NCBI GenBank assembly: GCA_022446945.1
Contig: JAKVBW010000001.1
Span: 58,338-92,011 of the forward strand
DNA length: 33,674 nucleotides
Direction: 5' to 3'
Source of the DNA: Phycisphaerales bacterium
Lineage (GTDB): Bacteria > Planctomycetota > Phycisphaerae > Phycisphaerales > SM1A02
Positions 5,163 through 30,500 of this stretch are shown one piece after another. Under the pieces are notes generated by a model that had not been told where the DNA came from, ran no database searches, and was given only the letters and a program-made list of their open reading frames with translations. Position numbers and translations under genes: made by a program. The first letter of the stretch is position 1, and each line of letters opens with the position of its first letter.

Positions 5163-6506
5163 CTAGGAGACGGCTGCAACACTGGGAGAAGCGGCGATTC
5201 GAGCCTCAAATTCGGCTCTGAACTTCTTGACGATGGTGCTCACAGCCCAGTTGGTGCCATCTGCGAGCCCGCAGATCGTCGTCCCAGGCATCGAGCCCAT
5301 GGCACCGGCGACTTCAGTCAAGAGCTCGAGATCGGACGCTCTTCCATAACCCTGTTCGATCTTCACAAGCAGTTTGTAGACCCACTGGGAGCCTTCTCTG
5401 CAGGGGGTGCACTGCCCACAAGACTCATTCTTGAAGAAGCGGGCAATGTTGCGGGCCACCATCACCATGTCGGTGCCATCGTCGAACATGGTTGGGCACG
5501 CCGTTCCCAGGCCCATGATGGCGTACTTCTGGCCGATATCAAAATCGAGTTCAGCGCCGTACTCGTTCTGATCCAAGATGCCCATGCTGACGCCGCCAGG
5601 TATGCAGCCTTTGTAGGCGCGACCGCCTTTGATCCCGCCGCAGTAGTTCTCGTCCTCGATCAGATCCCGAAGTGGCACACCGAGCCCCACTTCATAGACG
5701 CCAGGCCGCACGACATGGCCCGAGACTCCCACAAGTTTGGTGCCATAGGAGGGCGCTTGGCCGATGGTTGATTCGCAGCCCATGCCCTTCCACCATTCCG
5801 CACCCCGCTCGACGATGTGCGGCACTGCAGCAAGCGTTTCGACGTTGTTCACAATGGTGGGTCGGCCAAACAGACCCTCAACTGCCGGGAAAGGCGGTTT
5901 CAGGCGTGGCCACCCACGCTTGCCTTCAACAGCTTCCAGAAGTGCTGTTTCTTCACCACAGATGTATGCGCCTGCTCCACGGTGGAGATGACATTCCACC
6001 GCAAAGTTTGTCGCACCTTTCATCAACCCTTGTGAACCGAAGATGCCCATTTCGTAGGCTTCCCGGATGGCCTGTTCCATGACACGTGCTTGATGTCGAT
6101 ACTCACCACGAATGAAGAAATACGCGGTGTCCAGCCTGCATGCCCAGCACGCGATCGCAATGCCTTCAAGCACCTGATGGGGGTCATAATCCACAAGCAA
6201 TCGATCTTTGAATGTGCCCGGTTCTGCTTCATCGCAATTGATCGCGAGATAACGCCTGCCTCCATCCGGTTCAGGAAGGAATCCCCATTTGACGCCGCAG
6301 GGGAAGCCAGCGCCACCGCGACCTCGCAGTTCTGCATTCTTGATCAATTCGACAAGATCACTCGGATCCATCTCGATGGCACGGCGCAAGGCTTCGTAGC
6401 CACCGGTTTGAAGATATTCCTCACCAGTAATGACAGTCCTTCCCGCGGGGTCCGACCAAGGCCAGGTCGGTATGCGTTGGGTCATGACAGGTTCGGTCAG
6501 AAACAT
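5163..6506 (-). CDS. nuoF: NADH-quinone oxidoreductase subunit F
   Basis: 'LRGRGGAGFPCGVKWGFLP' (FMN/NADH site), 'YICGEETALLEAVEGKRGWPRLKPPFPA' and 4Fe-4S 'ESCGQCTPCREGSQW'. Confidence 0.97.
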   Translation of the reverse strand: MFLTEPVMTQRIPTWPWSDPAGRTVITGEEYLQTGGYEALRRAIEMDPSDLVELIKNAELRGRGGAGFPCGVKWGFLPEPDGGRRYLAINCDEAEPGTFKDRLLVDYDPHQVLEGIAIACWACRLDTAYFFIRGEYRHQARVMEQAIREAYEMGIFGSQGLMKGATNFAVECHLHRGAGAYICGEETALLEAVEGKRGWPRLKPPFPAVEGLFGRPTIVNNVETLAAVPHIVERGAEWWKGMGCESTIGQAPSYGTKLVGVSGHVVRPGVYEVGLGVPLRDLIEDENYCGGIKGGRAYKGCIPGGVSMGILDQNEYGAELDFDIGQKYAIMGLGTACPTMFDDGTDMVMVARNIARFFKNESCGQCTPCREGSQWVYKLLVKIEQGYGRASDLELLTEVAGAMGSMPGTTICGLADGTNWAVSTIVKKFRAEFEARIAASPSVAAVS

Positions 6507-6508
6507 GA

Positions 6509-6712
6509 TCAGGCGTCCTCAGTCTTGTTATGTGAGGGGATTTCGATTTCATCGACGACCGTTCTTCGCAAGGTAATGCCGTCTTCAGTCTTCTCTTCAA
6601 CTTGTCTGCCGATCTCTTGTCGGGACGGATCCACAGGGGTCTTGATCCCTCGGACGATATGGCCGGCGAACTCACCAAGGCAACGCATCAATGACTTCCG
6701 TTCCTCGGCCAT
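6509..6712 (-). CDS. Small (67 aa) conserved-looking protein of unknown function, translationally coupled between nuoE and nuoF
   Basis: MAEERKSLMRCLGEFAGHIVRGIKTPVDPSRQEIGRQVEEKTEDGITLRRTVVDEIEIPSHNKTEDA. Start ATG (6710-6712) overlaps the nuoE stop as ATGA; stop lies just upstream of the nuoF start. Confidence 0.75.
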   Translation of the reverse strand: MAEERKSLMRCLGEFAGHIVRGIKTPVDPSRQEIGRQVEEKTEDGITLRRTVVDEIEIPSHNKTEDA

Positions 6713-7239
6713 CAGCGGCTCAGCCGATCAATGATCTTGTCGATGGCGGTAATGGTGAGGTCATCATGCCGATCGTCGTCTACCAGCGCGCACGGCGCGG
6801 TGTCACAGGAACCAAGGCATTCCAGCGCGAGAAGAGTGAATCGCCCATCTTTCGTGGTCTCGTGGGGTTCAATGTCTAGGCGATTTCGAACATGATCAAT
6901 GATCGCTTGGTGCCCACAAGCCTCGCAAGCAATCGATTGGCAAATCGCGATCACATGCTCACCGATCGGACGCGTGTGAAACTCTTCGTAGAAGGTTGCA
7001 GTGTCCATCACCTGTGAAGCGTCAATATCTAGGAAATCTGCGACTTCCTCCATTGCCTGCGGCGGTATCCAGCCATACGTATGTTGGACATCGTGAAGGA
7101 TCGGCATGAGCGCTGCCAGCCGCGTTTCGTATCGGGGAAGAATCTCAGCGCGATAGCGCTCGATTGTCTGACTGCACAAGTAGGGCTCTTCCCTGCGAGG
7201 GATCTGCATGGTCGCGGATGGTTTGACGGTCCAGGCCAT
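6712..7239 (-). CDS. nuoE: NADH-quinone oxidoreductase subunit E (24 kDa, 2Fe-2S)
   Basis: 'PILHDVQHTYGWIPPQAMEEVADFLDI', 'ATFYEEFHTRPIGEHVIAICQSIACEACG', 'LECLGSCDTAPCALVDDD' (2Fe-2S cysteines). ATG at 7237-7239, 11 nt after the nuoD stop. Confidence 0.95.
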   Translation of the reverse strand: MAWTVKPSATMQIPRREEPYLCSQTIERYRAEILPRYETRLAALMPILHDVQHTYGWIPPQAMEEVADFLDIDASQVMDTATFYEEFHTRPIGEHVIAICQSIACEACGHQAIIDHVRNRLDIEPHETTKDGRFTLLALECLGSCDTAPCALVDDDRHDDLTITAIDKIIDRLSR

Positions 7240-7250
7240 CTTGGCGGCTC

Positions 7251-8540
7251 CTACCGGTCCAGTTCCGCGGCGATCACATTGATCGATCCGAGGATCGCAA
7301 CAAAATCGGCGAGTTGATGCCCTTCCAATTGTCGGGCAAAACTCTGATAGTTGATGAAGGATGGGGCGCGAACCCCGACTCTCCAAGGGGTGGGTCCACC
7401 ATCGGCGACGATAAAGAAACCGTATTCCCCATTTGGCGCTTCCATCGCAGCGTAGATTTCTCCCACCGGCGCTTCAAATCCCCGGTTGTCCATGATGAGT
7501 TCGAAGTGTTGAATGGTGGATTCGATCGATCCATAGACATCACCCTTCGGTGGCAGAACCGCCTTCCCCTCTGGATCGGCATTGATGGGTCCGTCAGGGA
7601 TGCGATCAATCAGTTGGTTGATGATCCTCGCCGACTGTTTGATTTCCTCGAGTCGCACCAGATATCTGCAGAGGCAGTCACCATCCTGAGCAATCGGGAC
7701 GTCGAACTCGACGGCGGAAGCGCCATTGCCGTCCCAGTTGTCGGCGTAGCAGAGATTCGGATCATCTTTCCGCAGATCTCGGGCGACACCGGATGCGCGG
7801 GCAAGTGGTCCAGTCAGGGACCAGGCGGTCACTTCTTCGGCGCTCATGACACCGATGCCTTTGACGCGGTCAATGAAGATCCGATTACGGTTGAGAAGCG
7901 TCTCGATATCGGTGATGGCCTTGGGCAAGCGCACATCGAGAAAGTTGTGGATCATCTTGCGAAAGATGTCCATGTCTGGGATGTCATGAGCGACACCACC
8001 AACACGGGTGTAGTCGGGATGGAACCGCTGCCCCGTGAGGAAATCCATGATGTCGTAAATGAATTCTCGTTCGTTGAATCCATAGAGAAATCCAGTGAAT
8101 GCACCAAGGTCCAGCGCAGCTGCACCCACACAGAGCAAGTGGCCTTGAATCCGGCCCAGTTCCATCAGGATGGTGCGGAGAACCTTGCATCTGGGCGTGA
8201 GTTCGATATCGAAGAGTTTTTCGACGGCGTTATGCCAGATGATGTCGTTACAGATGGGACCCACATAGTCCATGCGACTCGCGGTGCACACGAATTGGTT
8301 GTAGGTGTGGTGCTCGCCGAGTTTTTCAAAGCCGCTATGGAGATAGCCAACATGCGGTGTTGCCCTGACAACACGCTCGCCGTCAAGTTCGAGCACGACC
8401 CGTAGGGTGGTATGCGTTGCGGGGTGCTGAGGGCCGAAATTCAGCACCCACCGATCACCGGCGTCGGGCCGATCTGCGAGATATTCGACGTCATCGACAT
8501 CGACATCCCAGGGCTCTGCGGGTGTGAGTGTGTAGGGCAT
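7251..8540 (-). CDS. nuoD: NADH-quinone oxidoreductase subunit D (49 kDa)
   Basis: 'LNFGPQHPATHTTLRVVLELDGERVVRATPHVGYLHSGFEKLGEHHTYNQ', 'DRMDYVGP'-type segment (SRMDYVGPICND) and C-terminal 'ILGSINVIAAELDR'. Confidence 0.97.
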   Translation of the reverse strand: MPYTLTPAEPWDVDVDDVEYLADRPDAGDRWVLNFGPQHPATHTTLRVVLELDGERVVRATPHVGYLHSGFEKLGEHHTYNQFVCTASRMDYVGPICNDIIWHNAVEKLFDIELTPRCKVLRTILMELGRIQGHLLCVGAAALDLGAFTGFLYGFNEREFIYDIMDFLTGQRFHPDYTRVGGVAHDIPDMDIFRKMIHNFLDVRLPKAITDIETLLNRNRIFIDRVKGIGVMSAEEVTAWSLTGPLARASGVARDLRKDDPNLCYADNWDGNGASAVEFDVPIAQDGDCLCRYLVRLEEIKQSARIINQLIDRIPDGPINADPEGKAVLPPKGDVYGSIESTIQHFELIMDNRGFEAPVGEIYAAMEAPNGEYGFFIVADGGPTPWRVGVRAPSFINYQSFARQLEGHQLADFVAILGSINVIAAELDR

Positions 8541-28853: not shown

Positions 28854-30500
28854 CTAGAGAACAATCAGATGCATGTCGCTCTCTGCCTGAATGTCTTGGG
28901 CAGGGGGATGGTGGACGTCGCGCACCATCTCCGTGAGTCCGTTTTCAGACATGACTTTCCGCGTCTGGTCATCGCAGAATGCAGCAGCAGTTTCACCGCG
29001 CAGGCGTGCGAGCAAATCCATCGCAATCTGGGATTCGCCTTTACACCACCGTTTGGGTCTGACGGACTGTTGGAAGGATTGCAAACGGCCGGTTGCATTT
29101 TCGAACGTCCCCGCTTTCTCCATCCAAGTGGCGGCTGGGAGGAAGACATCCGCGCTGTCCACGAGCGCATTGGGCAGTGTGTCAATCAGCACAACACATC
29201 GACCTCCGTCGATGGCCTGTTGCAATGAGGGGGTCACCCATTCGCTGGGATAGTTGCCAGTGATCAGCACACCGGCGATCGAGGCATCATCCTGAAGTGC
29301 TTGTTCAAATCCTGAAGCATCGACGATGTTGCCGCCGAGGGCATCCAGTACACGCCGCACGCCACGGGCATTTGGCGCCTTCTCAGCGCGGATGACGAAA
29401 CCGTCCAGCATCGTCTGGTCTTGGCCATCGATGGGTACGGGCCCGACGCCCAGAACGGCGTGGGGATCGATGGCGCGCACCAGTTGGCCGAGATGCCATG
29501 CATCTTCGCATGACAGCATCGGACTGATCAGGGCGGCGATATGGCCTGCATCCTGCAATCCGTCCAAGGCCGCTGCTTCGGTGACTTCCCAAGCCTCATC
29601 CGCAGCATCATCTTCGAAGGGCTCACCATCCTTGAGCGTCGGCATGAGCAATCGGTCATCGTTCTTGATGAAGTGCCAGCCGTATCGGACTTCATCGGTG
29701 ATCCACCATCGGTTGACGTCCATGTTCTCGCGTGGCTTCAACCGGTAGACCTCGCCCTGATTGTGTTCGACCAGAAGGTTGTCGCCTGATGATGTCAAGC
29801 CGTCGATCGAAGGCGTTGACTTCAAGTACCAGACGCGCTGCGTGAAAAGGAAGTCCTTGTCGAGCAGTGCGCCGACAGGGCACAGGTCGATGACATTGGC
29901 GCTCAGGGGATTGTCGAGCGCTTTGCCAGGGAAGACGTCGATCGATTCGGTGGCGCCGCGGCCTTCGACCATCAACTCGCCTGTTCCCGTTACTTCCCGG
30001 GTAAAGCGCACGCACCGGGTACACATGATGCAGCGATCGCTGTAGAGCAGCACGTGAGGACCGATGTCCTTCTTAGGCTGCTTGATCTTGTCCTCCTCGA
30101 ATCGACTGGAGGCATTCCCATAGCGGTAGGCATAATCCTGGAGACCGCACTCGCCAGCCTGATCACAGACGGGACAGTCGACAGGGTGGTTGATGAGCAG
30201 GAGTTCCATGACCGAGTGCTGGCTTTCGACGGCCTTCTCGCTCTTGGTCGAGATGATCTGGCCTTCACCTGCGGGGGTCTGGCAAGCGGGGAGGAGTTTT
30301 GGAATGGTCTCAATCTTGCCGTCGTTGCGGGGGTTGGGTGCCGCGACTTCTGCAAGGCAGATGCGGCAGGAGGCCACGATCGACAGACCCGGATGCCAGC
30401 AGTAGTGCGGGATCTCAAGGTCATTGTCATGCGCCACTTCGAGGATGGTCTGGCCTTCCTCGAATTCGCAGACAACGTCGTTGATGGTGCAGGTGGGCAT
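28854..30500 (-). CDS. nuoG: NADH-quinone oxidoreductase subunit G-like (2Fe-2S/4Fe-4S + molybdopterin-oxidoreductase-like region), short form
   Basis: 'HYCWHPGLSIVASCRICLAEV', 'NHPVDCPVCDQAGECGLQDYAYRYG', 'YSDRCIMCTRCVRFTREVTGTGELMVEGRG', 'NVIDLCPVGALLDKDF'. Confidence 0.93.
   Translation of the reverse strand: MPTCTINDVVCEFEEGQTILEVAHDNDLEIPHYCWHPGLSIVASCRICLAEVAAPNPRNDGKIETIPKLLPACQTPAGEGQIISTKSEKAVESQHSVMELLLINHPVDCPVCDQAGECGLQDYAYRYGNASSRFEEDKIKQPKKDIGPHVLLYSDRCIMCTRCVRFTREVTGTGELMVEGRGATESIDVFPGKALDNPLSANVIDLCPVGALLDKDFLFTQRVWYLKSTPSIDGLTSSGDNLLVEHNQGEVYRLKPRENMDVNRWWITDEVRYGWHFIKNDDRLLMPTLKDGEPFEDDAADEAWEVTEAAALDGLQDAGHIAALISPMLSCEDAWHLGQLVRAIDPHAVLGVGPVPIDGQDQTMLDGFVIRAEKAPNARGVRRVLDALGGNIVDASGFEQALQDDASIAGVLITGNYPSEWVTPSLQQAIDGGRCVVLIDTLPNALVDSADVFLPAATWMEKAGTFENATGRLQSFQQSVRPKRWCKGESQIAMDLLARLRGETAAAFCDDQTRKVMSENGLTEMVRDVHHPPAQDIQAESDMHLIVL

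Follow-up and report, generated by a model that had tools for sequence, protein, structure and literature searches.

Small extra genes lie among the nuo genes of alphaproteobacterial nuo/nqo operons, where they are known as URFs (unidentified reading frames). Different bacteria stabilise the N-module of complex I through different extra parts: NDUFS4, NDUFS6, NDUFA12 and PIMT of Paracoccus denitrificans and Nqo15 and Nqo16 of Thermus thermophilus are supernumerary subunits, and the longer C-terminus of the Paracoccus NuoE homologue partly overlays NDUFV3 (PMC11522691). NDUFV3 itself, the 10-kDa protein of the mitochondrial flavoprotein module, is described as animal-specific (PMC11522691). It adjoins NDUFV1 and NDUFV2, and its conserved end lies most likely in the cleft between them (PMC5293009).

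The locus described here adds a small planctomycete gene, orf67, to this picture. In the window (the whole stretch of 33,674 nucleotides that we analysed) the genes stand in the order nuoD-nuoE-orf67-nuoF, with ybeY and a CorC-like gene coming next. The four genes are read from the minus strand: nuoD (49 kDa subunit, 7251-8540), which is the first nuo gene of the cluster, nuoE (24 kDa 2Fe-2S subunit, 6712-7224; 170 aa from the ATG at 7224), orf67 (6509-6712; 67 aa, about 7.5 kDa, ATG to TGA) and nuoF (51 kDa FMN/4Fe-4S subunit, 5163-6506; 447 aa). The identity of nuoE (PF01257, E 2e-49) and nuoF (PF01512, 5e-45; PF10589, 1e-27) follows from Pfam and also from similarity to the E. coli proteins. 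A 67-aa frame between nuoE and nuoF is what the original prediction, made from the DNA letters, had proposed, and the frame is there. Its junctions are slightly different from those proposed: the orf67 start does overlap the nuoE stop, not by the four nucleotides of ATGA but by one (the A at 6712) in the sequence TGATG (6710-6714, minus strand), and the orf67 stop (6509-6511) is next to nuoF without abutting it, since two nucleotides (TC) precede the nuoF ATG at 6506. Within the 3' end of orf67, 9 nt ahead of this ATG, we read the motif GAGGA (6516-6520, minus strand), which may act as a Shine-Dalgarno sequence. The E. coli nuoE and nuoF genes share a 4-nt overlap with nothing between them, so that orf67 occupies a place where, elsewhere, the two genes join directly. 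The TGATG junction is identical in 9/9 genomes of the genus examined. Of 80 distinct loci, 40 have an overlap between the nuoE stop and the orf67 start, which measures 1 nt at 24 of them and 4 nt at 13; the end of orf67 overlaps the nuoF start in 29 of 66.

The frame encodes a genuine conserved protein under purifying selection. A tblastn match to it was found in 55 of 61 related genomes, far above chance, and an HMM profile built from 17 divergent members detects it in 141 of the 151 Phycisphaerales genomes (at least 90% complete) that make up our distribution sample; E-values of these whole-genome searches are per genome. Most comparisons are saturated at synonymous sites, and dN/dS was therefore taken from close pairs only: in the two closest pairs within the genus it is 0.13 and 0.07 for orf67 and 0.08 and 0.03 for nuoE, in each case far below 1. 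Pooled pN/pS within the genus is 0.30 for orf67, 0.19 for nuoE and 0.16 for nuoF, so the protein is constrained yet faster-evolving than its neighbours. The two outcomes that the original prediction had named as refuting it did not occur: homologues stand between nuoE and nuoF throughout the order, and dN/dS is not near 1. We reject the notion of a spurious frame in the spacer, for which we found no point in favour and to which we give practically no credence: the conservation of the protein sequence, the low dN/dS and the conserved arrangement of start and stop all speak against it. Two other candidates were discarded. An apparent second copy at locus L057 (tblastn) is a chance match antisense to another gene, and an origin of orf67 as a duplicated piece of NuoE or NuoF is ruled out, as there is no similarity.

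Canonical nuoE (tblastn E below 1e-40) is present in 147 of the same 151 genomes. Both genes occur in 140 genomes, nuoE alone in seven, neither in three (G232, G154 and G581) and orf67 alone in one, G038, where the locus lies near a contig end; apart from this contig-end case, the three are all the genomes that lack canonical nuoE. The co-occurrence is significant by Fisher's test (p 8e-4, with the relatedness of the genomes ignored). Among the seven genomes with nuoE alone, the contig of G595 ends inside nuoE. In the other six (G041, G045, G580, G586, G588 and G589) nuoF follows nuoE and nuoD is intact, with no orf67 homologue between nuoE and nuoF. These absences fall in two families of the order and indicate that complex I can manage without orf67.

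Beyond the order, a second family within the class, f11, carries a divergent form, mostly placed between nuoE and nuoF; going by PMC11266412, our guess is that f11 corresponds to the order UBA1845. When 294 genomes of the phylum were scanned, only two weak matches fell outside Phycisphaerales, in frames of 718 and 359 aa, and no homologue was found in viral contigs. The spacers 3' of nuoE at nine further loci, read by eye, contain no homologue save that of G182, a divergent member inside the order. Judged by these sequence searches, orf67 appears confined to Phycisphaerales and a single other family of the class. The named records that carry it are nearly all Phycisphaerales, Phycisphaerae or unspecified Planctomycetota MAGs, and a few stand under implausible names such as Chitinophaga pinensis. 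Since outgroups (e.g. loci L242, L247 and L248) keep nuoD, nuoE and nuoF in this order without orf67, the simplest history would be that orf67 was inserted between nuoE and nuoF in an ancestor of the groups that carry it.

The physical linkage is strong and uneven. Of the 140 genomes with both genes, 103 have orf67 at most 500 bp 3' of nuoE on the same strand, nine have it further away and within 5 kb, and 28, nearly all of family f2, have it at a distance of over 5 kb from nuoE or on a different contig, a weakness for the argument from the operon. In family f4 orf67 follows nuoE while nuoF sits elsewhere, and at loci L037, L039, L044 and L045 it stands with nuoE and nuoF is outside the surroundings examined. 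Conversely, at L149 nuoF is downstream of orf67 with no nuoE nearby, and at L184 nuoF comes directly after orf67 with nuoE about 3 kb before. In genus g30 of family f2 (L042, L043, L046 and L051) the nuo genes are dispersed: nuoE, nuoF and orf67 are each in a separate place, and orf67 adjoins a carboxypeptidase gene; at two of the four loci its other neighbour is a sugar kinase gene. Despite this dispersal orf67 is still conserved in g30. The unlinked copies have no single common neighbourhood; where one is shared, it is shared by near relatives only. The pattern of linkage and the retention in g30 together indicate that orf67 tracks nuoE and nuoF, yet survives without the operon.

For the protein itself, AlphaFold2 (alignment of 65 sequences) predicts a helix at residues 8-24, strands at 31-43 and 46-57 and a low-confidence tail at 64-67. 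Mean pLDDT is 80 and pTM 0.38: the elements are confident and the tertiary packing is not, a pattern that would be in keeping with a protein that perhaps folds on a partner. The predicted helix and hairpin coincide with the conserved sequence blocks. The helix is strongly amphipathic, with a moment of 0.72 against 0.28 for shuffles (fraction reaching this value, 0.001), and is probably not hydrophobic enough to span a membrane. It comes in three flavours: KxLMRCLGEFxGHIxxGVKTDP in families f1, f2 and f4, MSWFxxLCRNxGLMIHNIxHP in f5 and f6, and KGLFGWLGRQVGHVKKAVKTD in f11. A variable linker, the beta-hairpin (EVxRxVEE, turn, VTLRRTTIDEIEI) and a variable tail follow; in orf67 the hairpin pattern reads EVxRxVEE-turn-VxLRRTTIDEIE. 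Besides the start Met, G17, R49, T51 and E55 are invariant. The single Cys pointed out in the original prediction is present in the window's frame and frequent in its own family, but not invariant; across the family members there is neither an invariant Cys nor a conserved metal- or FMN-binding motif. In f4 (L030, L031, L039, L044 and L045) the otherwise conserved LRRTTIDEIE strand is replaced by (I/L/V)RETRIRE(I/V)E, which looks like a swap of charges and could point to a compensating change in a partner.

Neither orf67 nor its relatives match anything in Pfam, NCBIfam or the PDB sequences; against Pfam, none of 17 family members matches any family at E<=1. A fold search of the PDB with the low-pTM model, which is a weak test, gave no match (best E 0.5), and no fusion with NuoE or NuoF occurs among 206 family ORFs. 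That orf67 is not a standard complex I subunit, as first suspected, agrees with the absence of any Nuo family match and with its absence from some genomes that carry nuoD, nuoE and nuoF. We found no mention of the family in the open-licence papers searched. The family thus appears new, while its kind, the lineage-specific accessory protein of complex I, is already known. NDUFV3 is the closest parallel: it is likewise small, lineage-specific, tied to the NuoE/NuoF (NDUFV2/NDUFV1) pair and added to a complete core subunit set (PMC5293009). orf67 plausibly works in a similar way, but the likeness is by analogy, as the searches above revealed no sequence homology. The supernumeraries of Paracoccus and Thermus sit on the hydrophilic arm as extra proteins and lend stability to the N-module in particular lineages (PMC11522691), as proposed here for orf67, but orf67 resembles none of them in the Pfam and PDB sequence searches or in the fold search with the low-pTM model. 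With the alphaproteobacterial URFs it shares the character of a small extra gene amid nuo genes; unlike them, it turned up in no searched set outside Phycisphaerae.

An accessory protein of the NADH-oxidising module is supported by the restriction of orf67 to a lineage, by its co-occurrence with nuoE and by its linkage to nuoE or nuoF. Our preferred reading, which we rate at about an even chance, is a small lineage-specific accessory subunit of the NuoE-NuoF module of complex I; we infer binding to NuoE/NuoF, permanent membership and a stabilising role. Precedents exist in the varied lineage-specific stabilisers of this module (PMC11522691) and in the small subunit adjoining NDUFV1 and NDUFV2 (PMC5293009). 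Such a subunit would most likely be synthesised along with NuoE and NuoF through translational coupling and dock on the flavoprotein module they form; the conserved amphipathic helix would occupy a groove where NuoE and NuoF meet, with the beta-hairpin packed alongside. In this position, which would be like that of NDUFV3 in animals, it would help the NADH-oxidising tip to assemble or to remain stable. More tentatively, orf67 might be the third member of a bacterial flavoprotein module (NuoE-NuoF-orf67), evolved independently in Phycisphaerae and sitting at or near the NDUFV3 site. The same genomic evidence, that is, the coupling to nuoE and nuoF and the co-occurrence with nuoE, would be expected of an assembly factor or chaperone that binds NuoE and/or NuoF only during folding, FMN or iron-sulfur loading or joining of the complex and is no part of the mature enzyme. 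Nothing that we computed separates this alternative from a subunit, and the loss of orf67 from some genomes with intact nuoE and nuoF fits a helper equally well; that the family has no invariant Cys and no conserved metal- or FMN-binding motif counts against it, and we consider it possible, if rather doubtful.

A function outside complex I is harder to reconcile with the data. As a small regulator or nucleic-acid binder, for example, orf67 could reside in the nuo cluster merely through shared expression, and the 28 genomes in which it stands far from nuoE, between unrelated genes, would then be readily explained. A further observation of this sort comes from G597 (record UBA854), where an unrelated 320-aa membrane protein, encoded on contig C21 (L190:5188-6147) with an ABC-transporter ATPase gene downstream, has at its end a stretch closely resembling the orf67 hairpin, EEVSRTVEEHAEGNVTLRRTTIDEIEIHP; this genome also has an ordinary orf67 beside nuoE, and the hairpin-like end is possibly a domain capture or an assembly chimera. 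However, a mere passenger would hardly be linked to nuoE in some genomes and to nuoF in others, be missing from the three genomes without nuoE, and lack a common neighbourhood among its unlinked copies beyond that of near relatives, and we judge this explanation unlikely. Least probable of the roles considered, and by our estimate very improbable, is that of a pure regulator that tunes complex I activity (e.g. by controlling how NADH reaches the flavin site or how much ROS arises there) and has no structural part: it would agree with dispensability in some lineages and with a gene encoded alongside the NADH-oxidising subunits, but the Pfam and NCBIfam searches found no regulatory motif or domain.

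Whichever role applies, orf67 defines a protein family for which neither Pfam nor NCBIfam has a model, nearly universal in one planctomycete order and associated with an enzyme central to respiration. Should it be a subunit, it would be one more independent way of keeping the NADH-oxidising tip together. Natural comparisons for the roles of small accessory proteins are offered by the outgroups that lack orf67 and by the six genomes that keep nuoE and nuoF without it, and the gene is a practical marker for these nuo clusters.

The original prediction had cast orf67 as an accessory, assembly or regulatory factor of NuoEFG; the lineage-restricted association with nuoE and nuoF holds, while the link to nuoG does not. 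The nuoG gene of the window (28854-30500, minus strand) lies about 20 kb from the cluster, unlinked to orf67, and the association is thus with nuoE and nuoF and not with NuoEFG as a whole. Most of the molybdopterin domain is missing from the 548-aa product of this nuoG. A comparably short NuoG, with open frames of mostly about 540-640 aa, is encoded in most of the planctomycete genomes checked, the 933-aa protein of G061 being an exception. The idea that orf67 compensates for a short NuoG is unsupported: a short NuoG occurs whether or not orf67 is present, and other classes of the phylum have it too. According to a class-wide survey, most Phycisphaerales would lack NADH dehydrogenase, a prediction based on missing annotations of nuoF and nuoG (PMC11266412). 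In contrast, the window does contain both genes; its NuoG scores under the cut-off of TIGR01973, which may be part of the reason for the missing annotations.

Some f11 loci carry additional small genes between nuoE and orf67. At L205 and L210 one of these resembles the tyrosine-phosphatase type, and at L207, L208 and L210 a gene for a 90-94-aa protein (YRLDDxGGFVxDTWHGSREDA) occupies this position.
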